From assembly GCF_000566685.1 (NCBI RefSeq), contig NZ_AZQN01000010.1, positions 1-64,000 of the forward strand: DNA of 64,000 nt, in the 5' to 3' direction. The notes under the pieces are model-generated. The model was not told the DNA's origin. It saw nothing but the letters and a program-made list of their open reading frames with translations, and searched no databases. Source of the stretch: Dyadobacter tibetensis Y620-1 (GTDB lineage Bacteria > Bacteroidota > Bacteroidia > Cytophagales > Spirosomataceae). Of the stretch, positions 40,451 to 57,341 are shown in pieces. The position numbers and the translations under genes are program-made. The number at the start of each line of letters is the position of its first letter. Position 1 is the stretch's first letter.

Positions 40451-43237
40451 CTATTGCTTAATCCATTTTTTGCTAAAGGAATGTGTCCCTTCCTGAATTT
40501 GTAATATATAAATGCCGCTTGTTAAATGATCAAAGCCTAAATACTGCTTAAATTGAATGTCGGTTTTGGGGTATTGGTATGTTTCCAGAAGTTGACCTCC
40601 GGAATCGAAAATCTTCATGGAGATGTAGCCCAAATAAGTGCTGGACCAGCTGATTAGCGCGGATTCTGTTACCGGATTAGGGGCCAGAATCATTTTTTTT
40701 GCCTCCGTTTTGGGCTCATTTCCTGTTACCACACTCACTTCCCAAGGTACAAGATTCGGCTGTGGACTTGGTAAAGCCACCGAGGTTAGGATATGGAACT
40801 GGCCGGGACTAAATGTTAACTTGTCAACATTAGGCAGGGTTTGGCCCGTGAAATAGTCGAACCAAGTCCCTGCCGGAAGGGTAAGGTCCGCTGGTTCCAG
40901 TCCTAAATTTGCCAGCACCCATAGTTCATAATCCTGGGTGGTAAGGTGAAGCTTTTTTTGGGGGTTTACGCCTGCGTCCAAATCAAATGCTAAAGGGGTA
41001 CTACGATCTCGTAGTGCTATAAGCTGGGCTATTACCTGATACAGTTTTTGACGGTTTTCTTCCTTTTGGTACTCCCATTTAATGGGCTTGGCACCCGTAC
41101 GACCGTTTTCATCAATGGAGATATCATAGCCGAGTTCACCAAATTGCCAGATCATTTTTGGGCCTGGAGTCAGCAAAAAGAGTGCCGAGGAGGCTTTTAC
41201 CCGCTCTAAAGCACTGTTAAGGTTTCGTGCCGAGTACCCGTTGCCTATCCCCCCATTGGTTTGGGCATCAAACATCAATCTTTCTTCATCGTGACTTTCC
41301 ATATAACCAATAGCGGCTGGACGGTCGAACCCTATATGATTTTTCCAGGACAGGCGGTTGAAGTTCCCCTTTCCATTTTTTATGGTCTCGCGAAATGCCC
41401 CATTCTGGTTGTCCCATACTAGCATCCCATGCTTTGTGAGCTCTGCTTCTTCCTGGTCGCTTCCAAAATGCTCTAGAATGACGTAGGCTGTGGAATCGAC
41501 TGAGCGTATATGGTTGTAGATTTCTTTCCAAATGGCGATCCTGCTGGCATCATACTGCCCCCAAGCATTCACATTACCTTCCGAAAGCGTTTGGGTGAAC
41601 CCCTTGGACAAGTCGAAGCGATATCCATCGAAATGGTACTCTTCCAGCCAAAACCGTGTGACGTCTCTGACCAGTTCTTTTGTGGCAGGGGCCTCATGAT
41701 TGAAGTCGAAAAATACGCTAAAGGGGTGTGTAGCCTGCCTATTGAACATAGGACTGTCGCTAGCGGGCTGACTTCCATCCCAATACATCTTCACATATGG
41801 AAAATCGTAATCGGCCTGGTTGAGTACCATATCTAAAATTACGGCTATACCATTTTGGTGGCAGAGATCTATAAATCGCTTCAAATCTTGGGGACGCCCA
41901 TAGGCTTTGTCGGGGGCCATGGGAAATATAGGGTTATAGCCCCAGGAGTCATTTCCTGCAAACTCCATGATCGGCATTAATTCGATGGCATTGATTCCAA
42001 GTCTCTTTAAATATGGTAGCGTGTCTGCCAGAGTTTGGTACCACTGGGTGGCCGCAAAGTCTCGAACCAACAATTCATAAATTACTAAATCCTCAGACTT
42101 GGGCCGTTCAAAGGCTTTATTTTGCCAGGAATAGGTGGGTTGGTTGGTTTGCAATACCGTTACAATATTGTCCTTGGCCCGATCGGGAAAGGGCAGCAGG
42201 TCTGGGTAATTTCTGTCCGGAATAAAATGGTCATTATTTCGATCGAGTATCTTCTCTGAATAGGGATCGGCCACTGCCGTTACACCATTCACCAGATATT
42301 GAAAGGGGTATTCTCGACCAGGTTCTAAATTTTTCAGTTCCAGCCAATAGGTTTTACCGTCGGGGGTACGGTTCATTAGATACTCGGACTGAGGCATCCA
42401 TTCGTTAAAGTCCCCTAGGAGGTGAACGAAATTTTTGTCGGGAGCGAATAATACCAAAGTGGCCGAACGATCTGAGGTGTAGTTTATACCTTTTTTCAGG
42501 CCTTGGGGCAAAGATGCTATGCTTGGGCTGGGATTAACGGTAAAGGTAAAGCTATCGTGTTTTTCTTCTCCGTTGGCTTTCGCCGTTACCAGTACTAGGT
42601 GTGAGCGATTGTCGGCCCTGCCGGTAGGTATTTTCGCTCCGATAATACTATCGGTGAGTGAGGTCAGCGGGATATTGTCTACGGAGATACTCAGATCACA
42701 GACCTTAGAGGCCTTGGCCAGAATATCGATGGTCGTATTAGCTTCTACGAAAAAATGTTCCTCCTGTGGCTGGGTGAAGGCTACCTGTAGCGCACCTGAA
42801 AGATATAGATCGAATGTGAAATCTTCTGTCTGTGCCGAGCCATCTGCATTTTTCACTAAAACACCCATCCAAACCAGCTTTTTACCAGTTGGAACTGATA
42901 GATACTGATCTGGAATAAAGGTGATACTCCATTTATCATTTCCTAAGGCGGTCAGTTTCCCCGGGGCAAAGGGTTTGTCGAAACTAGTTTGTCCTTCGGG
43001 ACCATATTCGGACTGATTATTGGCTTCGGAGCCTCCCCACGCCCAAATATACAGATCTGCAGATGGGTTTAGCAATCCCTCTTTTCGGCTATCCTTAGCC
43101 AATTTCAGATCGAAAGTGAGGGTGACTTTACCGTTGGAAATAGGGAATGCCGGGCTGACTTGCAGGGCCTGTCCCAGGCACAAGGAGGAAATCCAGCAAA
43201 GGAAAATAGTAATGATATAATTTTTCATTTTCTGCAT
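40451..43237 (-). CDS. Secreted GH13 alpha-amylase-family enzyme with T9SS domain
   Basis: This 928-residue enzyme could also start at the ATG at 43228. A signal peptide (cleavage near LCLGQ) is followed by an N-terminal beta-sandwich region. A CBM48-like module (about 255-330: LVLFAPDKNFVHLLGDFNEW) comes before a GH13 barrel (about 370-790). Catalytic residues are visible: the Asp nucleophile in DGYRFDLSKG (about 539), the acid/base Glu in VILEHFGSDQ (about 589) and Asp in MESHDEERL (about 648). The last 75 residues (LAPNPVTESALISWS to SKKWIKQ) form a T9SS sorting domain. It probably cuts starch or pullulan at the cell surface before SusC/D uptake. It is the last gene of the starch locus. 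Confidence 0.88.
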   Translation of the reverse strand: MQKMKNYIITIFLCWISSLCLGQALQVSPAFPISNGKVTLTFDLKLAKDSRKEGLLNPSADLYIWAWGGSEANNQSEYGPEGQTSFDKPFAPGKLTALGNDKWSITFIPDQYLSVPTGKKLVWMGVLVKNADGSAQTEDFTFDLYLSGALQVAFTQPQEEHFFVEANTTIDILAKASKVCDLSISVDNIPLTSLTDSIIGAKIPTGRADNRSHLVLVTAKANGEEKHDSFTFTVNPSPSIASLPQGLKKGINYTSDRSATLVLFAPDKNFVHLLGDFNEWMPQSEYLMNRTPDGKTYWLELKNLEPGREYPFQYLVNGVTAVADPYSEKILDRNNDHFIPDRNYPDLLPFPDRAKDNIVTVLQTNQPTYSWQNKAFERPKSEDLVIYELLVRDFAATQWYQTLADTLPYLKRLGINAIELMPIMEFAGNDSWGYNPIFPMAPDKAYGRPQDLKRFIDLCHQNGIAVILDMVLNQADYDFPYVKMYWDGSQPASDSPMFNRQATHPFSVFFDFNHEAPATKELVRDVTRFWLEEYHFDGYRFDLSKGFTQTLSEGNVNAWGQYDASRIAIWKEIYNHIRSVDSTAYVILEHFGSDQEEAELTKHGMLVWDNQNGAFRETIKNGKGNFNRLSWKNHIGFDRPAAIGYMESHDEERLMFDAQTNGGIGNGYSARNLNSALERVKASSALFLLTPGPKMIWQFGELGYDISIDENGRTGAKPIKWEYQKEENRQKLYQVIAQLIALRDRSTPLAFDLDAGVNPQKKLHLTTQDYELWVLANLGLEPADLTLPAGTWFDYFTGQTLPNVDKLTFSPGQFHILTSVALPSPQPNLVPWEVSVVTGNEPKTEAKKMILAPNPVTESALISWSSTYLGYISMKIFDSGGQLLETYQYPKTDIQFKQYLGFDHLTSGIYILQIQEGTHSFSKKWIKQ

Positions 43238-43285: not shown

Positions 43286-45130
43286 CTAGAATTCCAATAT
43301 CATTGCTTTACCGGCTTGAAGCATTACGGATTTTTTGACATGAATGGTAGTGTCTTCCAGGATATTACGGGCTGTAAACTGGTTTGGAATTATTTCTTTG
43401 AAACGTTGCAGGTCTAGCTGATACGGCTCTTTATTTTTATTGAGTATGACCATTATTTTTTGCTGGGCGTTGTATCGGACCTGAACATACACGCCATTTT
43501 CTGGTGCAAAATGCATCAGTTTACCCTGATGTACTGCCGAAGCCGATTTTCGCCAATTGAGCAGTTTCCTTGTGAAATGGAGCAGGTCTGCCTGAGCATC
43601 TGTAAGGCCGGTTTGGTTGAATACGCTAATACTGTCTCCTTGCCAACCTCCAGGCATATCACCCCTGATTTCCCCATGCTCCTCACTGTTTGGGTTTGAC
43701 ATCAGGATTTCTGTGCCATAATATAGCTGAGGGATTCCCCGGGTAGTCATCAAAAACACCAGGGCCTGTTTTAAATGGTCTGAATTCTCTTTCAATTGAG
43801 TGAAAATCCTACTCATGTCATGGTTATCTGTGAAGGTTACCAAGTCGTTGGGCTGTGCATAGACGTAGTCGTTGGCCAATGTTTGATATAACCTGATAAG
43901 GCCTTCGCCCCATGATTCTTCTTCGTTAAATGCTTTAATCAGAGCTTCATTCAGAGGGAAGTCCATTAGGCTTTTGAGATTGGAGCGATATCCATCCTTA
44001 TTTTTCACCCCCCTTTGCCAGTTCGCCACAAGGCTGGGGTTGTATGACCACTCTTCTCCTACTATGTTGAAATCAGGATATTCAGCCATGATACGCTGGC
44101 TCCACTCCGCCATGAATTCCTTGTCTGGATAGGGGTAAGTGTCCATTCTGATGCCTCCCAGGTCGGCGTATTCTACCCACCATATGGCATTTTGAATGAG
44201 GTATTGCGCCAGATATGGATTCCGCTGGTTCAAATCGGGCATAGTGGGCACAAACCAGCCATCGCTTTGAAGTTTGATGTCGGAAGCGGAGGCATAGGCA
44301 TCATGTAGTGCTTCACGTCGGTGATTTGTGATGGTCACAGGTTGATTTTGATAATTTACCCAGTTGCTATCGGGCAAATCTTTCATCCACCAATGTTCCA
44401 AACCGCAGTGGTTTGCCACCATGTCGGCAATAAGTTTAATGTTCCTTTCTTTTGCCAACAATGACAGTCGCTTATAATCTTCATTGGTTCCAAATCGGGG
44501 ATCCGTTTTGCTGAAATCGGTAATCGCATAGCCATGATAGGAATAGGTGGGCATGTTGTTTTCCAGCAGAGGGTTGATCCATAGGGCCGTTACTCCTAAT
44601 TTTTCTATATAATCCAGATGGTCGATAATTCCTGCGATATCCCCGCCATGACGCGCATACATGGCCGTTCGGTCTAGGGTATCGGAAAGCCCGGAAATCT
44701 GATCATTTTGTTGATTACCATTAGCAAAACGATCGGGCGTGATCAGGTAGATGACGTCCTTGGCAGAGAAGCCCTCTCGTTGCGCCGAATGAGGGGTTCG
44801 TTCAAGAAGAGAGTAAGATTGGTGAATAGGCTTTCTTCCACTCTGTTCAAAAAGAATATCCATCTCACCCGCCTGTGTATTGGGGCTGATATGTAAATCT
44901 ATAAATAGATAATTGGGGTTATTGGTGCGATGCACTTTTTTAATGGTTACCCCCTTATGATTAATTTTGGGCTGGTAAGAAGAGATACCTGTCTCATGAA
45001 CCATAAGCTGAAGTAGTGGACTTTTCATACCCACCCACCAGTTCAGGGGTTCTATATGCTGGATTGGCCCTTGGGCATTAGCGCCTAAAGCTATTAACAG
45101 CAGGCATAAATATTGGAGATTTCTGAACAT
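43286..45130 (-). CDS. Neopullulanase / cyclomaltodextrinase-like GH13 enzyme
   Basis: This 614-residue protein has a signal peptide (cleavage after GANAQ) and an N-terminal cyclomaltodextrinase-type beta-sandwich (about 25-115). A GH13 barrel follows (YLITPDRFANGN, ADMVANHCG) with Asp nucleophile in GGIRMDTYPYPD (about 329), Glu acid/base in NIVGEEWSYN (about 358) and Asp in TDNHDMSRIF (about 437). A beta-sandwich C domain closes it. There is no lipobox and no T9SS tail, so it is likely periplasmic, like SusA of Bacteroides. It would break imported malto-oligosaccharides. A terminator separates it from the SusE-like gene. Confidence 0.9.
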   Translation of the reverse strand: MFRNLQYLCLLLIALGANAQGPIQHIEPLNWWVGMKSPLLQLMVHETGISSYQPKINHKGVTIKKVHRTNNPNYLFIDLHISPNTQAGEMDILFEQSGRKPIHQSYSLLERTPHSAQREGFSAKDVIYLITPDRFANGNQQNDQISGLSDTLDRTAMYARHGGDIAGIIDHLDYIEKLGVTALWINPLLENNMPTYSYHGYAITDFSKTDPRFGTNEDYKRLSLLAKERNIKLIADMVANHCGLEHWWMKDLPDSNWVNYQNQPVTITNHRREALHDAYASASDIKLQSDGWFVPTMPDLNQRNPYLAQYLIQNAIWWVEYADLGGIRMDTYPYPDKEFMAEWSQRIMAEYPDFNIVGEEWSYNPSLVANWQRGVKNKDGYRSNLKSLMDFPLNEALIKAFNEEESWGEGLIRLYQTLANDYVYAQPNDLVTFTDNHDMSRIFTQLKENSDHLKQALVFLMTTRGIPQLYYGTEILMSNPNSEEHGEIRGDMPGGWQGDSISVFNQTGLTDAQADLLHFTRKLLNWRKSASAVHQGKLMHFAPENGVYVQVRYNAQQKIMVILNKNKEPYQLDLQRFKEIIPNQFTARNILEDTTIHVKKSVMLQAGKAMILEF

Positions 45131-45229: not shown

Positions 45230-46552
45230 TTATTTGCTTTTGGTGGCTGTATAACTCGCGTTATTTGGGTCTTTCAGGTCTAGGACAAAGCTCCATGTCC
45301 CTGCCGTCACGCTAAAGTTTTTGCCACCACTTTTCAATGGCCCGCTTGCGGCAATGGGGTCGGGCTCGGTTTCGGCAGTCGATCCCATATTAATACCCCA
45401 ATCGTCATTTTGGCGAAACTTTATCGCTCCTGCTTTTAGCACCACATTATTGAGATACCAGGTTTCGGTACTCAAATCGTATTTGAATTTCTGGTCGGGC
45501 TTATCACCCCAACCGGTAGCGGTAGCATCGCCGACGATGCCCCAGGGCGCGTAGGTGGAAAGGGTATATTTAAGATTTTTGAAATCGGCAGTCACCAGAT
45601 AGGTGCCTTTTTTAACGATGATATTATCTCCATTATCCACCAAAACACCATTAGCCCCCCCGTAATTGATGCCCCAATCGTTATTTAATCTGAATTTCAT
45701 TTCCCCATCGATCAAATTCACTACGGCAGTCCAGAGGTCTACTGAGGGGTCATACGTCAAGGCCAGATCGGGCGTTTTTCCCCAGTCGTTGGCGGCACTG
45801 CCCACCAGTCCCCAGCTGTATTTTTCAATTTTGTAAGTAAGGGCCACAGCGTTGAAGCTTACCTTGTAAGTACCTGCCTTTACAGTAATATTGTCACCGC
45901 CATCAGAGAGTTTTCCATCTTTCCCGCCCAGATTAACGGCCCAGTCATTATTTTGACGGAATTTTATCTCCCCATCGATAAAGGTAACATAGGCTACCAG
46001 CTCATTTGCTACATCGGTTTTGTAGAGGGGAGCGTCGGGAGTTTTTCCCCAATCGTTAATCGCGCTGCCCACAATTCCCCAGGGAGAACTAAGGTCTAGC
46101 TTTACGGAATAGGGGGTAACCTTTATGGTCATCACCTCGGAGGTGAGCAGGGTGGCTGCACCCAGCTTGGACTGGACGCGGATATCTACCTCGGAAGCTT
46201 CACCGGGAGCCAGGCCAAGTCCTATTAGTAAACTGTTGAGCTCAGCGGTTTTAAATTTTTTCTCCTGAGCCGATCCAGTTGTAACGGAGGCAGCTTTGGA
46301 AAAATCTCCCCCTTTTTTGTCAAGGAGAATCGTATTGGCTGCAGCGGCATTGAAGCCATAATCTGTTTGCCAGCTTATAGAAAGCGCTTCTGTTTGACTG
46401 GCCTCTTTGTCGAGCACTAAGTCCTGAGAAGATAGGCTGACGTTAGGGATAGCCCCTGTGTTCAGGATGGCCATATCCTGCTCCTTCATACAGCTCCAGG
46501 CAAGGAGTGCAGTAAATGTTAGTAGCAATAATTGATTGAAAAGTTTCATCAT
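45230..46552 (-). CDS. SusE/SusF-like starch-binding surface lipoprotein
   Basis: This 440-residue protein has lipobox AWSC (Cys21). An N-terminal SusE-type domain (about 30-150: SLSSQDLVLDKEASQTEALSISW) is followed by three homologous starch-binding modules starting at about 158, 247 and 337. Each opens WG(I/L)VG-x-A and contains K(F)R-x-N-(N/D)DW, the aromatic starch-contact pattern. It should be displayed on the outer membrane and hold starch for the SusC/D importer. It follows susD after 93 bases that include a strong hairpin. Whether to call it SusE or SusF is not decidable from the repeats. Confidence 0.88.
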   Translation of the reverse strand: MMKLFNQLLLLTFTALLAWSCMKEQDMAILNTGAIPNVSLSSQDLVLDKEASQTEALSISWQTDYGFNAAAANTILLDKKGGDFSKAASVTTGSAQEKKFKTAELNSLLIGLGLAPGEASEVDIRVQSKLGAATLLTSEVMTIKVTPYSVKLDLSSPWGIVGSAINDWGKTPDAPLYKTDVANELVAYVTFIDGEIKFRQNNDWAVNLGGKDGKLSDGGDNITVKAGTYKVSFNAVALTYKIEKYSWGLVGSAANDWGKTPDLALTYDPSVDLWTAVVNLIDGEMKFRLNNDWGINYGGANGVLVDNGDNIIVKKGTYLVTADFKNLKYTLSTYAPWGIVGDATATGWGDKPDQKFKYDLSTETWYLNNVVLKAGAIKFRQNDDWGINMGSTAETEPDPIAASGPLKSGGKNFSVTAGTWSFVLDLKDPNNASYTATKSK

Positions 46553-46645: not shown

Positions 46646-48196
46646 TTAGTAACCCTTATTTTGTACCAATGAAGGGTTGGCTACCAGGTCAGTACCGGCA
46701 ATAGGGTAAAGAGTTCTAAAGTCCTCCACATCTTTCCCTGATTTTTCTCCACCTTTCCATGCCCAGTTATAGCCAGATGTGAACTTGCCAAAGCGAATCA
46801 GGTCTGTGCGGCGATGTGCTTCCCAGAAGAGCTCCCTGCCGCGTTCGTTCAGAAGGTTGTCCAAGGTTAGGACGGTCAGTTTATTGGCTTCCGCACGGGT
46901 CCTTAACCTGTTTACCAGTTCCAGGGCGAGGGAAGTATCTCCATTACCACCTCTTAGTACTGCCTCTGCATACATCAAATAAGCGTCAGCGAGGCGGTAG
47001 ACGGCAAAGTCAGTATCAGTATGGGTAAGGTTCTTGCCCGGAGTGCCATCCTTTTTAATATTTTTCCACTTGGTTACGGCATAGCCCTCTGTAAACGTGG
47101 TAATATTGTCGATTTCAAGGGTCTGCCCGGTACTGTAAAACATGGCCCTGGTATCCTTCTTATCATCAAATAGACCAACCAACTCCTTGGTGGTTCGGAA
47201 ACCCGCCCAGCCTCCATCCACACCGAAATCGGTAGGGTTCATGCTTCCGCCTACGGCTGCGTGAATAAGGGTAGTAGTGCCTCCCCAGGTTTGTGTTTCA
47301 TTCCCATCGAAATTGATGGTAAAAATGGTTTCTGGAGAGCTGTCATTGTCAGCCAAAAAGTTATGAGCGTATTTCGGCGCGAGCGTATAACCTGCGTCTA
47401 CGACTTTTTTGGCATATTCTGCGGCCTCAGTATACTTTTTCTGTCCTACATAAACTTCGGCGTTCAGATATAATTTAGCGAGGGTCATCCATGCGGCTGC
47501 TTGGTCGGCCCGGCCATATTCATTGGTTTTTGGAGCAGGAAGTTCCGCTTCCAGAGCCTTTAACTCTCCTTCCAGATAGGTGAATAATTCCTGACGGGTC
47601 GCTTGTTTGGGTAGGGCGGATCCTACCTGATCTTTTTCGGTTACCAAGGGTATGTTCCCAAATAAATCGATGCCATGGTAGTAAACCAATGCCCGAATAA
47701 AACGTGCCTCTGCCCTGTAATTTTTGATGTCCTGGCTATTGGCAATTCCCCGTGAGCTAAGTTTTTCATCTGTTGTTTCCCGCAAGAATTCATTGGCTAC
47801 CGCAGCCTGAAACAGGATACGAGAGTAGAATGCAGAAGACCATTGATTGGAAGCTGTCCAACTCATTTTATGAAGGTCGGGAAGGCCCGGGTCTCCCCAG
47901 CCCGTAACAGCCTCGTCGGTAGGGAACTCCTGAAGGTACCAGTAGACCCGCATATAGCCCTGAGATCCTCCATCGTAATTTTTTAAATCTACGTCGTCGT
48001 CCTTTGGTTTGATTCCTGATACGGCTAAGCCGGCGTAAAGTTTGGCCAGTATAAGCTTATAATTATTAACATCCTGATAAACCAGCTCCGAAACCTCGCC
48101 TACGTAGGGCTTCGTGTCTAAATCTTTACAAGCGCCAAGCCCCAGGAGCATCAGCGTGGCGCAAAGGGTAGTCTTAAATATATTTTTCATATCCAA
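46646..48196 (-). CDS. susD: SusD/RagB-type nutrient-binding outer membrane lipoprotein
   Basis: This 516-residue protein has lipobox GLGAC (Cys23) followed by KDLDTKP, the usual SusD start. The TPR-like helical scaffold is apparent (FIRALVYYHGIDLFGNIPLV, AWMTLAKLYLNAEVY, DAYLMYAEAVLRGG). The C-terminal RELFWEAHRRTDLIRFGKF motif is the family hallmark. It forms the lid of the SusC barrel and hands over glycans. The neighbouring amylases and three-module starch-binding protein make starch the likely ligand. It begins 5 bases after susC ends. Confidence 0.95.
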   Translation of the reverse strand: MDMKNIFKTTLCATLMLLGLGACKDLDTKPYVGEVSELVYQDVNNYKLILAKLYAGLAVSGIKPKDDDVDLKNYDGGSQGYMRVYWYLQEFPTDEAVTGWGDPGLPDLHKMSWTASNQWSSAFYSRILFQAAVANEFLRETTDEKLSSRGIANSQDIKNYRAEARFIRALVYYHGIDLFGNIPLVTEKDQVGSALPKQATRQELFTYLEGELKALEAELPAPKTNEYGRADQAAAWMTLAKLYLNAEVYVGQKKYTEAAEYAKKVVDAGYTLAPKYAHNFLADNDSSPETIFTINFDGNETQTWGGTTTLIHAAVGGSMNPTDFGVDGGWAGFRTTKELVGLFDDKKDTRAMFYSTGQTLEIDNITTFTEGYAVTKWKNIKKDGTPGKNLTHTDTDFAVYRLADAYLMYAEAVLRGGNGDTSLALELVNRLRTRAEANKLTVLTLDNLLNERGRELFWEAHRRTDLIRFGKFTSGYNWAWKGGEKSGKDVEDFRTLYPIAGTDLVANPSLVQNKGY

Positions 48197-48201
48197 TATA
48201 A

Positions 48202-51192
48202 TTAGAAGTTAAGGTTGAGGCCTACGGAAATGGTACGTGGACGGGGATAGACCTGCTTATCGAGGCCATCTGCAATTTCCGGATCAAGGCCTTTGTATTT
48301 GGTAATCACAAATACATTCTGAGCTACCAATGACAATTGAGCCCGTATTTTCCCACTTTTGAACAAATGATCGAGATTATATCCGAAGTTTATATTGTCC
48401 ATCCGAAGGAAGGATGCATTCTGAACATAATAATCAGAAAGTATTGACTGATCTGTTCTACTAGCAAATCCTGTTTCCAGGACGTTAGAGGAAAGGTTAC
48501 TCAAAAAGTTGCCTGCCCCGGTGATGGCTTGATAGGTACCTCTGTTGGCATACACATTATTGAAATTGTAGTTGCCCACATTGGCCCGCATCACGAATCC
48601 GAGGCTAGCCTTTTTATACATAAATTGTGAACTAAGACCCAAGAATAGGTCGGGAGCCGCTGCTTGGTAGCGGTAACGATCTAGTTCGCTGATAATACCA
48701 TCTTCATTGCGGTCTACGAATACGCCTTCTATGGGTGCTCCTGATTCATCATAAACCTGCTGATACATAAAGAAGGCATTTGGTGCATATCCTGTAGAAT
48801 GAACCTGGGCATAATTGCCCGTTCCTCCATCTATACCTCCCACGAGTACCCCCACATAGCTTGGGTTATCTACCTTGGTCAGGGCAGTAATCTTTCTTTT
48901 GTTATAGGTAAGGTTTCCGCTGATGTCCCAGGTGAAATTCTCGGTCATAACGGGACTGTAGTTAAGGACAATTTCTACTCCTGTATTCTCAAGACTACCT
49001 ACATTAGTGGTTACCTTATTGCTGAAATTGGATCCGGCTGGAACATCAATTTCGTTGATCAGATCGGTTGTTTTTTTCTGATAAACGTCAATGCTTCCGG
49101 AAATTCTCTGCTTGCTTAATCCGAAGTCTAAGCCAATATTGGTGGATTGTGTTTGCTCCCATTTGATATTAGGATCGTAGGCATTTGGTCTTAGGACATT
49201 TACGAAAGTATTGCCGAGCTGGTAACGCAGTCCTTGTCCGGGGGTATAAGCGTTGAGATAGGGGTAATCGCCCGAAGACAGGTCCTGCTGGCCGGTGATA
49301 CCCCAGCCAAGGCGGAGTTTAAGATCCGAGAATATATCGTCCCGGGCGAACTCCTTGTTGATTTTCCAGGCTAAGGCTACTGACGGGAATGTGCCCCAGC
49401 GATTTTCTTTGGCGAAACGGGACGAGCCGTCTCGGCGCACGGTGACCGTAGCGAGGTAGCGGTCGTTGAGGGCATAATTTAGCCTTCCAAAATAGGATAG
49501 CAAAGCATAGTCGGTCTTAAAATAGGAGCGAATACCCACTACGTCAGGATTTCCATAGGTAGTTCCATTCTCATTTTCGCGGACGAAACCTTGATTTTCG
49601 GCCCCCGCCATGATATTGAAATTCTGCTTGCCGACTTGTTTTACATAATTCAAATAGAACTGGTTGGTGAAATTATGACGCTTTTGAGTATAATATCCCG
49701 TGGAGCCGTTATTGGTGAATGACCCTGCCGAAACAAGGTTAGAAGAATATTCCTCTCCATTGGTTTTGGATCGGTCGAGTCCAATATTCCAATTGGCACG
49801 AAGGTCGGGAAGGAAGTGAAACTTGTAGTCGAATTGAACGTTGGCGATCACCCGGTCCAGGGTACCTTCATTGCTTTTTAATTTTAGTAATGATAAAGGA
49901 TTAGAAGCCGCCAGGGCTTCTATGTTCCCTTGAGGATTAAGCCATTGAAAATAACCTCCAAATTTTTCGTTATCTACATAAACCGGCTGAGTAGGATCGA
50001 AGCCGATGGCACTGCCAATGGCCCCCTCATCGGGGAAGTCACTCTTGGTGGTGGATGCTTTTAGGTTGATATCGACTTTCAGATGATCTTTCAGAAACAT
50101 TGGGCTAAGGCCTAAAGATGCTGAGGTACGATTCATGGCCGAAGTTTTCAGAATACCGTTCTGTGCATTATAACCAACCGAAACTCGATATGGGATGCTT
50201 TTGACGGCACCTGTTACACTTAGATTATTATCACTGCTGATAGCCGTTCGGTAGATCTGGTCCTGCCAGTCGGTATTGTCGGAGCCCAGTAACAGCTTTT
50301 GACTCTCGGTTCCTTGAGCATTTACTACTTCGCGAAACTGGTTGGCATCAAGCACATCCATTTTCTTAGCAATGCGACTTGCCGATAGTAAAGTGCTGAA
50401 GGTTATTTTTGTTTTATCCCGGGTATTCCCTTTTTTGGTCGTGATGATAATAACTCCATTGGCGGCCCGAGAGCCGTAAATAGCCGCTGCAGAGGCATCC
50501 TTCAGTACGTTAAACGATTCAATATCGTTGGGGTTGATGAAACTTAAGGGATTGGCAGCTCCCTTGATATCGCTATTATCCAGGGGGATTCCGTCCACTA
50601 CAATAAGCGGATCGTTGCTGGCGCTTAGTGAGGATCCTCCACGGATGCGGATTTTACTCCCTGAACCAGGGGCCCCTCCGTTCGAGGTGATTTGAACGCC
50701 CGCTAATTTACCAGCGATTAATTGTTCAGGAGTGTTGACATTTCCTTTTACAAAATCTGCAGAGCTAATGGCTGTTATTGAGCCTGTCAAGTCCGATTTC
50801 TTTTGAGTTCCATACCCCACAACCACTACTTCCTGTAATAGCCGGGAGTCGGACTGCAGTTGTGCATCGACGATTGAGCGGTTGCCTACCGCTATGTCCT
50901 GGCTGAGCATTCCCACGAAACTAAAGGACAGCACCGCATCTGCTGGAATTCCTGAGAGTTCATACGTTCCATCCAGATTAGTTTGGGTACCTACGGTTCC
51001 TCCCTTAAGCAGGACCGTAGCTCCCGGAATGGGCGATCCATCGGCTTTGTCGGTCACTGTACCTTTCACCGTAAGCTGAGCATAAACACTCTGCCCTATG
51101 ATAAGTAAAAATAGCAGAAGGAAAAGGAGTCTGCTTGGTACGGTACTGGACGCATTTCCCCATTCCCGTTTTGACGTATAAATTTCTGTCAT
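48202..51192 (-). CDS. susC: SusC/RagA TonB-linked outer membrane importer
   Basis: The ATG at 51192 (996 residues) is preferred to a GTG one codon earlier. A signal peptide with a long N-region (cleavage after SVYAQ near 38) is followed by a CarboxypepD_reg-like domain (about 41-120). The SusC TonB plug (about 125-260) has VVVGYGTQKKSDLTGSI and the diagnostic GSRAANGVIIITTKKG, and a 22-strand barrel ends ISVGLNLNF. It imports malto-oligosaccharides with SusD as lid. A membrane AraC-type regulator gene lies 247 bases upstream on the same strand, and the gap holds a -7-like box. Confidence 0.96.
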   Translation of the reverse strand: MTEIYTSKREWGNASSTVPSRLLFLLLFLLIIGQSVYAQLTVKGTVTDKADGSPIPGATVLLKGGTVGTQTNLDGTYELSGIPADAVLSFSFVGMLSQDIAVGNRSIVDAQLQSDSRLLQEVVVVGYGTQKKSDLTGSITAISSADFVKGNVNTPEQLIAGKLAGVQITSNGGAPGSGSKIRIRGGSSLSASNDPLIVVDGIPLDNSDIKGAANPLSFINPNDIESFNVLKDASAAAIYGSRAANGVIIITTKKGNTRDKTKITFSTLLSASRIAKKMDVLDANQFREVVNAQGTESQKLLLGSDNTDWQDQIYRTAISSDNNLSVTGAVKSIPYRVSVGYNAQNGILKTSAMNRTSASLGLSPMFLKDHLKVDINLKASTTKSDFPDEGAIGSAIGFDPTQPVYVDNEKFGGYFQWLNPQGNIEALAASNPLSLLKLKSNEGTLDRVIANVQFDYKFHFLPDLRANWNIGLDRSKTNGEEYSSNLVSAGSFTNNGSTGYYTQKRHNFTNQFYLNYVKQVGKQNFNIMAGAENQGFVRENENGTTYGNPDVVGIRSYFKTDYALLSYFGRLNYALNDRYLATVTVRRDGSSRFAKENRWGTFPSVALAWKINKEFARDDIFSDLKLRLGWGITGQQDLSSGDYPYLNAYTPGQGLRYQLGNTFVNVLRPNAYDPNIKWEQTQSTNIGLDFGLSKQRISGSIDVYQKKTTDLINEIDVPAGSNFSNKVTTNVGSLENTGVEIVLNYSPVMTENFTWDISGNLTYNKRKITALTKVDNPSYVGVLVGGIDGGTGNYAQVHSTGYAPNAFFMYQQVYDESGAPIEGVFVDRNEDGIISELDRYRYQAAAPDLFLGLSSQFMYKKASLGFVMRANVGNYNFNNVYANRGTYQAITGAGNFLSNLSSNVLETGFASRTDQSILSDYYVQNASFLRMDNINFGYNLDHLFKSGKIRAQLSLVAQNVFVITKYKGLDPEIADGLDKQVYPRPRTISVGLNLNF

Positions 51193-51262
51193 CACCTTTT
51201 TATTTAATAGTTAGATTTGCTATGAACCTTGACAGGTCACTCAATTATCAAAATTGATCTTG

Positions 51263-51270
51263 CAAAAATA
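51263..51270 (-). promoter_or_regulatory. Possible -7 box of susC
   Basis: On the minus strand TATTTTTG fits TAnnTTTG and lies 71 bases before the susC ATG. No clear TTG is seen 19-20 bases upstream, which would fit an activator-dependent promoter. Confidence 0.4.
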
Positions 51271-51439
51271 CTATAGGGAGCTACCTGCAGTCGTTCCACT
51301 TTGAGGGTGATGCCGGAAAAGGTACCAATTGAATTATAGTCAGTAAATATTTGAATATTAGAGGTATAGAGGCGATCAGAAAGACCCACTTTATAATGTG
51401 GTACATCTTTTTTTATGAATAATCGCATAAAATACTGGT

Positions 51440-53332
51440 TTAGTCCTCCACGCGAGAGTCATAAAAGTATTCACGAGGCGTGCTACCTGTCATTTTCTTA
51501 AATGCCCTGTTAAAGGCGGTTTTCGAATTGAAGCCTACTTCGAATGCAATGGCCAGCATGGTAAAATGTTTATTCTTTGGGTCCTCATACTGCATTTTAA
51601 AATCCTCGATCCGGTAGGTGTTGATAAAGTCGAAAAAGTTTTTGTGATAACCCTCATTAATGATTCGGGAAAGCTGGTGTGGGGGCATCTTGAGCTTTCC
51701 GGCCAGCTCGCCCAGAGTGAGGCCTGGATTGTGGTGGGGCTTTTCCTGAGTCATATAAAGTTCTATTTTGGGTTGCCATTCCAGCCATATCTGCTCAAAT
51801 TCCTTTTCCTTGGACTCGTCCTGAACTGTTTGCTGGCTTATCGTTTCTGCTGTATGCTCCTTATCGGTCTTAAAGAGGCTTAAATCTTCCTTATTAGGAA
51901 TCTTAAAAATTTCTGGCTGGTGAATAGCGAAGTAGCCTAAGAAATAAGGTATCAATGAGAAAGCCAGCCAGATCGTATCCACACTAGTCTCATAGGTAGC
52001 GTAGGTGTTCGAGATTTCCAGATGGTTGAAGAGCATCAGAGCCCCGGAGAATAGCCAAATGAGCAGGCAAATCGCCTGAATAATCAGTACGGTTTGAAGG
52101 TACTGGATATTTTGCTCATGAGAGGCCAGCGTGGTATATTCTCGATGATAGGTACGCATGGTGCGTCTACATAAAAACCAATAATAGGTATTGCTAACCA
52201 GTCCAATAAATCCTAATGAAATAAACATCAGATACATTGTCGAATCCTTATTGACAATTAATATCTGCAGCTCTTTATGTTCCATGAGGAAATAGGGCAT
52301 GTACAAGAATACCTGAATAGAGGGCAGGATAAAGTGCCACCACCATTGACGGGGAAGTATAGGGGTTTTGAAGAGGAGGTTCCGCAGGTAAAAGTAAAAT
52401 AAAGGAGCATATAAAAACATGGCAAAATCAGGAACCAGCAGTAGCTTGGTATTAGATTGGGCCACGCCGCGATAATTGGCAATGACATGGATGAAAATCA
52501 TGACGGCTATAAAGGCGATTGAGATTACCAACCAATAGTTGGCCCGGCGGTTATAATCCTGCATACTAGGAATGGCAATCATCAACAGGACACACTGAAA
52601 CGCTGAGAATAGCAACAAGAGATCATATATAGAAAAAAAATTGAAGGTGCCACTGAAGTCCTCCCAGGTCAGAATTTCGATATTGACATCCTTCTGTTCT
52701 CCGGCTTGGGCTCTTTCCAGCACTCTATTGGGCAAGGCACGCCCTGTCTGCTTTCCTTCTACACTATTCCAGTCTCCCCGGGTAAATTTGTATTCCAGAC
52801 GGCTCAATTCCGAAACCACCGAAATTCGGTAGGTGTTATCCATTTGTTTCCGAAGTCGATAAACCTCCATACCAGGATCCCAATTATTAAAATTGCCCGT
52901 GATGTAGATTTGCGCATCCTTAGGAGTGTTTTCAGGGATTCGGGTTACGACGAATCGGTAAGTAGGCTTGCTTTCCCATCCTTCAATGCTTATGCGGATG
53001 GTATCCGAAGTATTTGCTGACCTGATAAAACGTCTGTTTCCTATTTTTTCTCCTTTTTTGGTCCCCTCGGCTAAGGCCCAGCTTCCCTGAGTGATTTTGT
53101 ATTCAAACTGATTAAGTGTGTCGGGAAGATTGATTGTATAGGTATCATTTTCTTGTTTTTTTAGTTCATATCTTAAATCGCCCGGATCCCATTCATTGAA
53201 ACTTGCGGCCAAAAACAGCCTTTCATTATTGGTTAGAAATGCGGGCGTAGATTCCACAATCAGTCGAGTTTGGGCCGACGTACTGGTGGCAATGATATAC
53301 AATAGGAGTGCAAAAAGTCCCGTTAGTTTCAT
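51440..53332 (-). CDS. Membrane-spanning AraC-type regulator with starch-binding-like modules
   Basis: The ATG at 53332 (630 residues) opens a signal peptide, MKLTGLFALLLYIIATSTSAQ; the frame is open 12 codons further. Two tandem CBM20/E-set-like modules follow (about 22-115 and 122-218). They share FN(E/N)WDPG, a central (F/L)EYK(I/F)T(Q/R)G-x-W and a G-x-x-(I/L)-x-NR motif. Seven membrane segments (about 232-480) bring the C-terminus into the cytoplasm. A linker precedes an AraC-family HTH domain (about 525-630: LTLGELAGKLKMPPHQLSRIINE, IAFEVGFNSKTAFNRAFKKMTGSTPREY). It lies directly upstream of susC on the same strand and most likely activates the starch locus on sensing starch fragments outside. 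It differs from classical SusR in having seven membrane spans and no beta-propeller. Confidence 0.82.
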   Translation of the reverse strand: MKLTGLFALLLYIIATSTSAQTRLIVESTPAFLTNNERLFLAASFNEWDPGDLRYELKKQENDTYTINLPDTLNQFEYKITQGSWALAEGTKKGEKIGNRRFIRSANTSDTIRISIEGWESKPTYRFVVTRIPENTPKDAQIYITGNFNNWDPGMEVYRLRKQMDNTYRISVVSELSRLEYKFTRGDWNSVEGKQTGRALPNRVLERAQAGEQKDVNIEILTWEDFSGTFNFFSIYDLLLLFSAFQCVLLMIAIPSMQDYNRRANYWLVISIAFIAVMIFIHVIANYRGVAQSNTKLLLVPDFAMFLYAPLFYFYLRNLLFKTPILPRQWWWHFILPSIQVFLYMPYFLMEHKELQILIVNKDSTMYLMFISLGFIGLVSNTYYWFLCRRTMRTYHREYTTLASHEQNIQYLQTVLIIQAICLLIWLFSGALMLFNHLEISNTYATYETSVDTIWLAFSLIPYFLGYFAIHQPEIFKIPNKEDLSLFKTDKEHTAETISQQTVQDESKEKEFEQIWLEWQPKIELYMTQEKPHHNPGLTLGELAGKLKMPPHQLSRIINEGYHKNFFDFINTYRIEDFKMQYEDPKNKHFTMLAIAFEVGFNSKTAFNRAFKKMTGSTPREYFYDSRVED

Positions 53333-53434: not shown

Positions 53435-54556
53435 ATGAAATCATTCGCACTGTTAGCACTCACTTTGCTGCCAACGCTGATTTTTGCCCAACAAAGAGCA
53501 CGGGAATCGGGAATTGTCATCGGAGTATTGCCCACCGGCAATCTCAACGCCATTACCGACGTGGTAGGCCTGAAGGTGGGGCAGATCACCATTCATGAAG
53601 GTCGTGATATTCATACAGGCGTTACAGCCATTCTCCCCCATGAGGGTAATGTATTTCAACATAAGGTACCAGCTGCTGTGTATGTAGGGAATGGTTTTGG
53701 GAAACTGGTGGGCTCCACCCAGATCGAAGAACTTGGTAATCTGGAAACTCCTATTATCCTTACCAACACTTTGAATGTTCCTACCGCTTCAGAAGCGCTT
53801 ATCGACTGGACTCTGGGGCAAAAAGGGAATGAGACTGTCCGATCGGTGAATCCCGTTGTGGGAGAGACCAACGATGGGTATCTTAATAATATAAGGGGTC
53901 GACATGTTTCCAAACAGCAGATTCTAAATGCTTTGGCCCAGGCAGAGGGAGGAAAGGTGGACGAAGGTAATGTTGGGGCTGGATCGGGAACGGTTAGTTT
54001 TGGGTATAAAGGAGGCATTGGTACCTCATCAAGGGTCTTGCCAGGCAATCTGGGTGGATATACGATTGGCGTTCTCGTGCAAACCAATTTTGGCGGTGTG
54101 CTCCAGATTGATGGGGTGCCTATAGGGCAGGAACTCGGTAATTATGCTTTTAAAAGTGTTTTGGACAAATCAAAAGATGGGTCCTGTATGATCGTTGTGG
54201 CAACCGATGCCCCTTTGGATGCACGGAATTTAAAGCGCCTGGCCAAAAGAGCTATGTTAGGACTTGCCAAGACAGGAGGGATAGCTTCTAATGGAAGCGG
54301 TGATTATGTGATAGCTTTCTCTACGGTCAACCGGGTGCTCCACGAGAGCCCCCAGTCAACTGCACCAGCCACTTTCCTTCATAATGATTTTGTATCACCT
54401 CTATTTATGGCCGTGATAGAAGCCACCGAAGAGGCGATAATCAATTCCCTATTTATGGCTAAAACCCTGGAAGGTGCCGATGGACACGTGGTGGAAGCCT
54501 TGCCCAGGGAAAAAGTACTGTCGCTGATGAAAAAGTATGGGCGGTTGAAAAAGTAA
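53435..54556 (+). CDS. P1 family peptidase (DmpA/BapA-type aminopeptidase)
   Basis: This 373-residue protein has a signal peptide (MKSFALLALTLLPTLIFAQ), so it is periplasmic. The P1 fold is recognisable from ITDVVGLKVGQITIHEGRDIHTGVTAI, VPAAVYVGNGFGKLVG, GAGSGTVSFGYKGGIGTSSR and GYTIGVLVQTNFGG. Gly249-Ser250 lies directly before CMIVVATDAPL. This is where family members self-cleave to expose the Ser nucleophile. NGSGDYVIAFST follows. It would remove N-terminal residues from D- or L-amino-acid amides and peptides. It is transcribed divergently from the starch regulator, with 102 bases between. Confidence 0.9.
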   Translation: MKSFALLALTLLPTLIFAQQRARESGIVIGVLPTGNLNAITDVVGLKVGQITIHEGRDIHTGVTAILPHEGNVFQHKVPAAVYVGNGFGKLVGSTQIEELGNLETPIILTNTLNVPTASEALIDWTLGQKGNETVRSVNPVVGETNDGYLNNIRGRHVSKQQILNALAQAEGGKVDEGNVGAGSGTVSFGYKGGIGTSSRVLPGNLGGYTIGVLVQTNFGGVLQIDGVPIGQELGNYAFKSVLDKSKDGSCMIVVATDAPLDARNLKRLAKRAMLGLAKTGGIASNGSGDYVIAFSTVNRVLHESPQSTAPATFLHNDFVSPLFMAVIEATEEAIINSLFMAKTLEGADGHVVEALPREKVLSLMKKYGRLKK

Positions 54557-55235: not shown

Positions 55236-57341
55236 ATGTCGGTGGATATATTTCAGAATTGTTTTGAGGCATGTAAATATGTTCTAGTCATTGTTGCGTG
55301 CAGTATATTCATGGGATGTACCCCCGATGATACACCTAGCGGAGCCGATAATCCGGAATTGATGAGGCAAATTCGGGAGCATGCCACTGCTATGCTTGAT
55401 AAGGGGGAAATGGAAGGAGCCAGGGCCTACTATGACTCGGCTTTTGCAAGTATAGACTCTCCAGGCGTAGGCGACTATTTGGCCCGGTTCAGCTTTATAG
55501 GCGGGGAATATTATGGCAGGATAAACGAACCCCTGGAGTCGATAGAATATCTAGACAGTCTTCTTGCCTTATTACCAACTCCCGCTATCCAGGGGCAATA
55601 CTTTAGCGTTTATACGGGTGCCTTATTTTTAAAGGGAGACCGTCTTTTCGACCTAGGGAAGTATAATCTGGCTTACGAAAGTTACTTTAAAGGAAAACTG
55701 GCAGCAGAAAAAAAGGGAGATCCTTGCGCACTCAGTGAGTGCATCTACCGGCTCGGAATGGTTAATTATAAGCAAGAACGATATTTTGATGCCGCCGATC
55801 GTTTTAAAGAGAGTCTGAAAGTAATAGAGTCTTGCCCGGCCAGTTTTGATGTCTTCGCCAGAACACAAGAATTACTAAATAATACCAGTATCAGTTTAGG
55901 TAAGCTCAATCAGATAGACTCGGCACTTGCCTATAGCCACAGAGCGCTTGAATATATTAACCGGGAAAGTCCTAAATATCCATCGAGAAGTGGGTATGCA
56001 CAAGTAGCCAAGGCCGTAATTTATGGTAATCAATCCAATTTTTATCTCAATAAGGGGAAATACGGTCTAGCTGAGGCATTACTCCTCAAGAGTATAGCCA
56101 TTAACACACAAAAAGGCTACGACAATTTTGACGCTCAGACCTCTATGATCAAATTGGGTGAGCTTTATTATGCCACCAATCAATCTCAAAAAATTGTGGC
56201 TGTACTGACTAAATTAAAGGCCTCCCTTGATTCTTTGTACGACCCCTATGTAGAGCAGCGCTATGTAAAACTTAAGTCGGATTATTATCTTAAAAATAAT
56301 CAACAGGATTCGGCCTACGTATATCTGAAGAAATATCAGCGATTACAATCCAGCTCCGATTCTGTTCAACATCAGCTATATATGGCCGATCTGGATAAGG
56401 AATTCCAGCATTTGCGCCAGAAAAGTGATAACCAGGAGCTACAACAGGCCAACGAACTCAAGAAGGTATGGCTTTATTTGGCGCTATCCTTACTGGCTAT
56501 GGCCTTGTTGATCTTATTTTTGATTTGGAGAAACTGGAGGCTTTCACGTCAGAACTTGTCCAAACTTGAAAATCTGAACGTGCAGATCAGTATACAGAAT
56601 ACCAAATACGAACAGACTTTGAAGGAGCTGAAGCGGAGTAGTGAGGAAAAGGATAGAATATTGAAGGTAGTGGCTCATGACTTAAGGAGTCCTATTGGGG
56701 CCATAGCCAGTATTTCCAGCATTCTTCTGGATGAGGCTCAGTTTGATGAAGAGCAATTGCGTATGGCCACTATGATTAAGGATTTAAGTTGGCAATCCAT
56801 GGACATGATTCGCGATGTGCTTTCCAATAGTATAGGCCCCAACACCTCCGAACTAAGGATAGAACGGGTCGATATGGTTGAGTTGGCTCAGGCATGTGTA
56901 GATCAGATACGATTTAAAGCGGAAGAGAAGAAACAAAATATTTATTTAGAGGTTTTAGAGTCTGTCAGTATTGAGGGGGACAGAGAAAAACTGACCCGGG
57001 TGTTGGTAAACCTTCTTGTCAACGCAATTAAATTCAGCCCAAGCCATTCGGCGATAACGGTTATTTTAGGTCATGCTGACGGGAAAATGAGGCTGGAGGT
57101 GGCCGATAAGGGAATTGGTATTCCCGATGAAATATCCTCTCAGTTATTCGATACAAATGCTGGGGCCCAACGAAGTGGCACCCAAGGTGAAAAGTCTTAT
57201 GGGATTGGCCTTCCATTTTCAAAGGAAGTGGTAACAGCGCATCAGGGGAATATATGGTTTGAAAGCCATGAAGGAGTTGGATCACAATTTTTTATAGAAA
57301 TTCCCTTCCGGCAAAATATGGACGTAGAAAATAAATCATAA
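55236..57341 (+). CDS. TPR-containing sensor histidine kinase
   Basis: This 701-residue protein begins with a lipoprotein-like signal (FMGC, Cys28). About eight TPR-type helical pairs (about 45-395) lie outside the cytoplasm. One membrane helix (about 411-431: WLYLALSLLAMALLILFLIW) and a coiled coil follow, then HisKA with the phospho-His in VVAHDLRSPIGA (about 480) and a HATPase domain (LLVNAIKFS, ADKGIGIPDE, SYGIGLPFSKEV). There is no receiver domain and no response regulator gene adjacent, so it is an orphan kinase. The Ser-Pro after the His box Arg is typical of Bacteroidota TPR kinases. Its signal is unknown; TPRs suggest a protein or peptide partner. Confidence 0.88.
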   Translation: MSVDIFQNCFEACKYVLVIVACSIFMGCTPDDTPSGADNPELMRQIREHATAMLDKGEMEGARAYYDSAFASIDSPGVGDYLARFSFIGGEYYGRINEPLESIEYLDSLLALLPTPAIQGQYFSVYTGALFLKGDRLFDLGKYNLAYESYFKGKLAAEKKGDPCALSECIYRLGMVNYKQERYFDAADRFKESLKVIESCPASFDVFARTQELLNNTSISLGKLNQIDSALAYSHRALEYINRESPKYPSRSGYAQVAKAVIYGNQSNFYLNKGKYGLAEALLLKSIAINTQKGYDNFDAQTSMIKLGELYYATNQSQKIVAVLTKLKASLDSLYDPYVEQRYVKLKSDYYLKNNQQDSAYVYLKKYQRLQSSSDSVQHQLYMADLDKEFQHLRQKSDNQELQQANELKKVWLYLALSLLAMALLILFLIWRNWRLSRQNLSKLENLNVQISIQNTKYEQTLKELKRSSEEKDRILKVVAHDLRSPIGAIASISSILLDEAQFDEEQLRMATMIKDLSWQSMDMIRDVLSNSIGPNTSELRIERVDMVELAQACVDQIRFKAEEKKQNIYLEVLESVSIEGDREKLTRVLVNLLVNAIKFSPSHSAITVILGHADGKMRLEVADKGIGIPDEISSQLFDTNAGAQRSGTQGEKSYGIGLPFSKEVVTAHQGNIWFESHEGVGSQFFIEIPFRQNMDVENKS

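Follow-up and report, generated by a model that had tools for sequence, protein, structure and literature searches.

A membrane-bound AraC-type regulator with predicted glucan-sensing modules and a predicted operator at the starch-utilisation locus of Dyadobacter tibetensis

When examining the first 64,000 nucleotides of contig NZ_AZQN01000010.1 of Dyadobacter tibetensis Y620-1 (hereinafter, the window), we observed that the gene at 51440..53332 of the minus strand codes for a transmembrane AraC-type regulator of 630 amino acids (P0001), which is probably a one-component activator of the adjacent starch-utilisation operon, with glucan-sensing modules outside the cell membrane and with the box AAAGTGGnnCGAC, located at the susC promoter, as its predicted operator. 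The anatomy of the protein, its association with starch genes and the position of the box are established by computation.

The gene is a single open frame that starts with the ATG at 53332, 12 codons into the mechanically delimited ORF, and the plus-strand reading of the same interval is interrupted by many stops; the initial annotation of this DNA gave the coordinates correctly and left the strand unstated. A search of the genome returned one full-length copy of it. The protein starts with a signal peptide (residues 1-20, 53273..53332), detected by hydropathy and, by direct reading, cleaved after STSA and before Q, followed by two tandem modules, namely, module 1 (residues 22-121, 52970..53269) and module 2 (residues 122-232, 52637..52969), which align with each other with 34 of 99 residues identical (BLASTP E 6e-21). 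The modules are followed by seven predicted membrane helices (residues 235-471, 51920..52630) that fit the hydropathy averaged over 35 homologues and also appear in an AlphaFold model (235-257, 262-287, 299-321, 329-351, 365-398, 405-440 and 447-471), which was made without an alignment and, with a mean pLDDT of 41.6, is too poor for structural use. The counts of lysine and arginine, a weak signal, are 2, 2, 4 and 4 in the inner loops and 2, 2 and 0 in the outer loops, weakly consistent with a topology in which the modules are outside and the helix-turn-helix (HTH) domain is inside; with the N-terminus outside and seven helices, the HTH is expected in the cytoplasm. This domain (HTH_18, PF12833; residues 543-622, 51467..51706), delineated by Pfam search and by alignment of 24 sequences, scores 55.6 bits against a curated cut-off of 33.6 (E 6.5e-15), and PF00165 scores 30.6 bits against a cut-off of 26.6. 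No histidine kinase or receiver domain was found in the 630 residues at E 0.1. The signal peptide, the paired modules, the seven hydrophobic segments and the AraC HTH had all been read correctly in the initial annotation. A peptidase S58 gene (53435-54556) is divergent from the regulator gene, with 102 bp between the starts, an arrangement that recurs in the closest relative (L037), and a TPR-containing histidine kinase with HisKA and HATPase_c domains is encoded nearby (55236-57341).

The two modules resemble the CBM48/AMPK type of glucan-binding domains, at scores that are all below the Pfam cut-offs (AMPK1_CBM, 17.6 against 26.8 bits; CBM_48, 17.5 against 22.4; X25 of pullulanase, 20.2 against 27). 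Among 59 homologous modules (67 modules less 8 near-identical ones), matches at E 0.01 were obtained for five with AMPK1_CBM, three with CBM_48 and four with X25, and a related three-module lipoprotein clears the AMPK1_CBM cut-off, with 40.3 against 26.8 bits. The profile built from the 59 modules retrieved, weakly, GH13 and AMPK-beta chains from the PDB, the best E value of 5e-4 being summed over several weak domains and the AMPK chains appearing from E 0.08 upward; in this comparison, the conserved W, K and W of the profile align with FNNW, YKF and GQW of AMPK beta-2. In an AlphaFold model of module 2 obtained with a five-row alignment (pLDDT 66), no Foldseek match reached E 0.001, and the top matches, from E 2e-3 upward and with a TM of about 0.48, were the CBM20 domains of STBD1, beta-amylase and cyclodextrin glucanotransferases (CGTases), which we take to be starch-binding domains; among the best 50 matches listed, CBM41 ranked lower and there were also a few unrelated folds.

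The residues W151, K182, W188, N202 and R203 of module 2 are invariant in all 35 homologues. In the 32 homologues that possess module 1, W48, K79 and R100 are invariant, whereas W85 is found in 31 and N99 in 27 of the 32; thus, the contact aromatics on which the initial annotation had made its proposal depend are present. Glucan binding by AMPK beta1 is reported to depend critically on tryptophans 100 and 133, lysine 126 and asparagine 150 (PMC4032982), and mutation of the conserved contact residues of AMPK is reported to reduce glycogen binding markedly (PMC2642990). Judging from position, N202 and N99 of the regulator would be the equivalents of N150 of AMPK beta1.

The same W-K-W-NR pattern, however, is also found in modules away from starch loci, in three lipoproteins (L071, L075 and L076) and in an esterase of the same genome, and the CBM48 modules of CE1 esterases are reported to have the same fold, with starch binding not found (PMC8040265), so conservation of the pattern is no proof of a starch ligand. 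In the esterase (L004, 1438-2562), a single module is fused to a PF00756 domain. In L071 (1282-4337), a cassette comprises a kinase of the His_kinase type (PF06580), a response regulator of the LytTR type and a lipoprotein in which the regulator's module occurs three times; the cassette is also present in L072-L076, with Pfam assignments made for L071 only, L075 and L076 identified by reading, and L072-L074 by gene length and similarity. The cassette points to another sensory role for the module family; the window's starch proteins had no match within the 8-kb stretches around these cassettes. At the end of a Bacteroidales contig (L007, 1-1104), four tandem modules occupy one frame, the first of them truncated where the contig ends, and a convergent gene of 900 amino acids reads like a 7TM/phosphatase sensor; this was the only relative found in a scan of genome contigs, and a scan of viral contigs found none.

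Downstream of the regulator, all on the minus strand, lie genes for a TonB-linked outer-membrane protein homologous to SusC (48202..51195), which is the predicted first target, a SusD homologue (46646..48196), a SusE-type lipoprotein (45230..46552), a GH13 enzyme with N- and C-terminal domains of the cyclomaltodextrinase type (43286..45130) and a second GH13 enzyme with a sub-threshold CBM48 and a T9SS sorting domain (40451..43237). The gaps in this series, starting from the regulator, are 244, 5, 93, 99 and 48 bp, and because all genes are on the same strand and the gaps are short, a single operon is likely. The NCBIfam model nearest to the SusD homologue is the starch SusD (E 1.3e-114, 383 bits, below the cut-off of 725), and the lipoprotein, identified by domain search, shows, by direct reading, three repeats of about 90 amino acids. 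The neighbourhood is as the initial annotation had it, with the regulator immediately upstream of susC and with a three-module lipoprotein and two GH13 enzymes in the locus.

Full or nearly full homologues of the regulator were detected in the genomes of 34 of 149 relatives, one of which has two; these genomes were chosen by eye among matches of at least 326 bits, with the pieces of split matches joined. Three of the homologues (L065, L067 and L068) are missing module 1. Among 222 genomes of the family, 73 have a match at E 1e-80, and in 395 genomes sampled across the phylum, matches at E 1e-30 that combine the modules with the 7TM-AraC part are confined to the same family and order, including one at 43% identity in another family (G290), while the 7TM-AraC part without modules is widespread. 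The regulator and the starch susD (E 1e-80) co-occur in 29 of the 149 genomes, five have the regulator only, 10 susD only and 105 neither (Fisher test 2e-17, with the kinship of the genomes ignored); within the genus, nine genomes have both, none has only one, and 39 have neither.

For 34 regulator loci, we retrieved the preceding 6 kb and the following 12 kb where the contig allowed (seven were cut by contig ends) and labelled the neighbours by phmmer with the window's proteins, at no less than 300 bits for susC and 30 bits for GH13. A susC gene is directly downstream of the regulator in 20 loci and anywhere in the stretch in 24, GH13 is present in 24, and at least one of the two in 29. By contrast, among 20 loci of module-less 7TM-AraC genes drawn from that homologue search, susC is never directly downstream, and either gene was found in two, in both cases susC and never GH13; SusC-like genes are counted in six of the 20 when any score below E 1e-4 is accepted. 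The homologues are, then, mostly at starch loci, the opposite of the finding that the initial annotation had held would count against it. The susC gene of L070 is a weak match, at 323 bits, and of the five loci with neither gene (L055, L060, L061, L063 and L066), four are cut by contig ends. According to Pfam, starch enzymes also stand beside regulators that have no adjacent susC, in the form of a SusG-type GH13 (L046), a cyclomaltodextrinase-type GH13 (L067) and amylases with three CBM26 domains, two genes from the regulator (L059), or with five (L069). In one clade, the first gene after the box is a GH53 gene, of the endo-beta-1,4-galactanase family, followed by susC-susD-susE (L127, 994-2133, and L058, 8058-9203, by Pfam; L062, L064 and L135 are similar by reading). 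At L117 (11525-13234), in a regulator-less genome, a starch-type susC is preceded by genes for an ECF sigma factor and a FecR anti-sigma factor, as if these replaced the regulator; a pair of this kind upstream of susC is recorded for the regulator-less G082.

These distributions bear on what the modules bind. It is conceivable, albeit unlikely, that the regulator controls the starch operon while its modules bind another glycan or a protein, the ligand being sensed elsewhere, for example, by the seven-helix domain. The CE1-linked modules for which starch binding was not found (PMC8040265), the occurrence of the module family in the LytTR-linked lipoprotein and in the esterase, neither seen at starch loci, the three homologues devoid of module 1 and the 7TM-AraC proteins that occur across the phylum sample without any module are all compatible with such an arrangement, as are the operons that GH53 opens (L058 and L127), since their substrate may not be starch alone. 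However, all 35 homologues show the AMPK pattern of glucan-site residues, GH13 lies near 24 of 34 module-bearing genes as opposed to none of 20 module-less ones, and the top fold matches, obtained with a low-confidence model, are starch-binding domains.

Mapping of the regulator's site between 51196 and 51439 had been proposed in the initial annotation, and the intergenic region indeed contains a predicted operator that is shared with starch genes at other loci, also in trans. This proximal box, AAAGTGGAACGAC on the minus strand (51290..51302), is followed by a -7 promoter element, TATTTTTG (51263..51270), of the TAnnTTTG type, which we take to be the Bacteroidota -7 consensus; the element begins 32 bp from the start of the box. 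Since the box starts 31-32 bp before the -7 element, it coincides with the -33 region of this promoter, the position of a class-II activator, as for AraC, and, by reading, it occupies the place of a -33 TTTG element. Further upstream lies a palindrome, GTACCACATTATAAAGTGG (51386..51404, minus strand; core 51386-51401), with the half-site AAAGTGG, and the spacing from this half-site to the proximal box is 90 bp. No second good match to the box that would indicate autoregulation was found ahead of the regulator gene in the window.

The box or a near variant is present between the regulator and the next gene in 24 of 29 stretches (the window and 28 loci with a co-directional next gene, six loci being omitted), and in 22 of these 24 the -7 element starts 31 or 32 bp beyond the box, 20 times as TAnnTTTG and twice in a relaxed form. 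The palindrome consensus, GTgCCATTTTATAAAGTGG, matches 24 of 30 upstream regions compared to 0.5 expected from base shuffles, for a pattern that was written after seeing the sequences and with one match, in L056, that looks spurious; its half-site is separated from the proximal box by 90-94 bp in 19 cases of 24 and by 76-109 bp in the others. Covariation between the HTH and the box was looked at in 24 sequences, and none is claimed. A good match to the box (score 18.2, at 3556 of L097) also follows the regulator with 43% identity in G290, with an imperfect -7 element.

In the 5.3-Mb genome of D. tibetensis, the pattern of box plus promoter occurs once, at the susC promoter of the regulator locus. 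Among the 149 relatives, it was found in 23 of 34 regulator-bearing and six of 115 other genomes (Fisher test 1e-13, kinship ignored), and a reversed pattern used as a control gave 13 matches compared to 33 for the true one. Because the linked sites supplied the pattern, they are not independent support. In the regulator-bearing genomes of this set, the gene behind each of the 25 sites is susC, GH13 or a gene of the GH53 type that susC follows, and five of the sites are unlinked to the regulator gene, with two in G076 and one each in G057, G072 and, as a second site, G030. In G076, one site precedes GH13 and the other susC, on a contig other than that of the regulator, and the second site of G030 precedes an alpha-amylase gene, likewise on another contig; the assemblies of G057 and G072 are fragmented, and a separate contig therefore says little about distance in these two. 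A profile scan additionally placed the box before an unlinked operon on another contig in G066 and before a separated operon in G068; in both operons, susC comes further along.

In 131 held-out genomes of the family, with the pattern fixed beforehand, the pattern was detected in 26 of 42 regulator-bearing and 12 of 89 other genomes (Fisher test 5e-8, kinship again ignored). The regulator-bearing genomes contribute 27 sites, 23 of which sit 100-685 bp beyond the end of the matched regulator; another lies 4.8 kb from the regulator before an unlabelled gene and susC, susD and susE (G594), one lies 52 kb away before GH13 (G587), and two resemble chance matches (the second in G580 and one inside a frame in G558). 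The exact pattern had no match in 11 of the 34 regulator-bearing relatives and 16 of the 42 held-out ones; looser criteria recover the box in six of those 11 (L043, L044, L048, L058, L062 and L106), and even so, no box was seen in G061, G075, G101, G122 and G136. Within regulator-bearing genomes, the box is also absent at six susC genes of G101, G122 and G136 and at the second susC of G083.

In 10 genomes that have susD and no regulator, no box was found within 1 kb upstream of the 10 testable susC genes (of 11; L125 is cut by a contig end), the best score being 7.0 compared to a lowest training score of 17.1, and the combination of box and -7 element was found in none of the whole retrieved stretches around the 11 regulator-less susC genes or the 20 module-less 7TM-AraC genes. 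In both sets of genomes together, 17 of 20 regulator-less sites were examined (all except those of G538, G563 and G021); 12 lie inside frames of at least 120 amino acids, with that of G085 inside a susC-like frame on the opposite strand, and of the five outside frames, four precede no gene matching the window's proteins. The fifth (G620; L136, 2367) precedes susC-susD-susE in a genome where the regulator was found neither at E 1e-80 nor on the contig of the site, which may reflect an assembly gap or loss. A chance origin of the box is rejected on the basis of the reversed-pattern control, the regulator-less susC loci, the module-less 7TM-AraC loci and the held-out genomes. The regulator and the box are paired in cis and in trans.

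The position of the box also bears on the sign of the regulation. A protein bound at the -33 region could block the polymerase, and the regulator could then be a repressor that quits the box upon glucan binding; we consider this improbable, given that class-II activation fits both the position and the protein family, that the box, by reading, stands in place of the -33 TTTG element, and that SusR is reported to be an activator (PMC3878776). It is still harder to credit that the box belongs to another regulator or that the palindrome serves the regulator gene as an RNA hairpin or terminator, with the proximity being incidental. The palindrome is able to form a stem, and in 17 of the 22 loci that were measured its distal half-site starts 18-48 bp past the regulator stop. 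Its distance to the stop, however, extends to 336 bp, as opposed to 90-94 bp from the box in 19 of 24 cases, it is kept before GH53-susC (L127) and an amylase gene (L129) in stretches without a regulator gene, a simple terminator scan of the intergenic region reports none, and the box is missing from the 11 regulator-less susC stretches and follows the regulator in the held-out genomes. The terminator reading is rejected because the spacing of the palindrome tracks the box rather than the stop and because L127 and L129 keep the palindrome without the regulator gene.

If the regulator is the activator that we propose, fragments of starch that enter the periplasm via SusC and SusD would bind the two CBM48/AMPK-like modules, and the seven-helix domain would relay the signal to the AraC HTH on the cytoplasmic side; the HTH would occupy the box at the -33 region as a class-II activator and switch on the promoter. 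The half-site of the palindrome, mostly 90-94 bp upstream, may hold a second protomer or dimer, possibly by looping. The predicted regulon consists of the susCDE-GH13 operon and, in some relatives, also of separate GH13 genes.

Regulation of polysaccharide utilisation from the membrane is not without precedent. In Bacteroides thetaiotaomicron, the starch sus operons are activated by SusR (BT3705), a membrane protein that is reported to bind maltose and to combine a sensor in the periplasm with a cytoplasmic DNA-binding domain unlike that of any other transcription factor, with predicted sites composed of two half-sites whose centres are 67 or 77 bp apart (PMC3878776). The regulator described here is similarly membrane-bound and associated with starch genes, with a predicted outside sensor, an inside DNA-binding domain and long-spaced half-sites. 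Going by that description, it is set apart from SusR by the AraC type of its HTH, the CBM48/AMPK-like sensor and the seven predicted helices, and a spacing of 90-94 bp prevails between its half-sites, of which the distal one is inside a palindrome. In Saccharophagus degradans, membrane-bound AraC proteins encoded beside polysaccharide genes, one of which (Sde_3858) has 6-7 transmembrane segments, were proposed in 2008 to be polysaccharide sensors (PMC2386152); they share with the regulator the one-component, membrane-bound AraC design and the neighbourhood, and the description compared names no CBM-like modules, operators or regulons. The HTCS of Bacteroides combine a periplasmic glycan sensor and an AraC-type output in one polypeptide encoded beside susC/D, with half-sites on average 21 bp apart (PMC3878776), whereas the regulator is without kinase or receiver domains at E 0.1 and has the longer spacing. 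Extracellular carbohydrate-binding modules serve as sensors for transmembrane control of transcription in the RsgI anti-sigma factors of Clostridium thermocellum (PMC12203970), which act via a sigma factor and proteolysis, in contrast to the regulator, in which the DNA-binding domain is part of the same chain as the sensor. Finally, the glycogen-binding domain of AMPK is reported to act also as a glycogen sensor (PMC2642990); the modules share with AMPK beta, CBM48 and CBM20 the W-K-W contact pattern and, going by a low-confidence model, may have a similar fold, and differ in falling below the Pfam cut-offs and in being placed on a membrane regulator. In the open-licence PMC literature on AraC proteins with CBMs, membrane AraC proteins and starch regulators, the listed titles and openings of abstracts contained no description of the architecture that combines a 7TM-AraC part with CBM-like modules. 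The suggestion of the initial annotation that this receptor would be a distinct solution to sensing is overstated in view of SusR, the membrane AraC proteins and RsgI. Membrane-bound AraC proteins, SusR and CBM-bearing sensors were already known; the predicted operator is new.

A more far-reaching interpretation can be put forward tentatively, as one that we deem possible and somewhat doubtful. The membrane-tethered AraC protein would read periplasmic malto-oligosaccharides via AMPK-type modules and loop DNA at the membrane between half-sites about 92 bp apart, in convergence with the 67/77 bp of SusR, and modules of this family would serve Bacteroidota as a general sensory element, found also in the LytS/LytTR-like cassette with the three-module lipoprotein. 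If the regulator works as proposed, the glycogen-sensing modules of the eukaryotic AMPK have a bacterial counterpart in a transmembrane sensor that controls transcription, and widely spaced half-sites are common to two distinct membrane regulators of starch utilisation. The regulation of starch utilisation loci outside Bacteroides gains a candidate receptor, an operator predicted at the level of individual bases and a predicted regulon, and the pairing of the regulator with the box could serve for regulon prediction in other genomes of the family.
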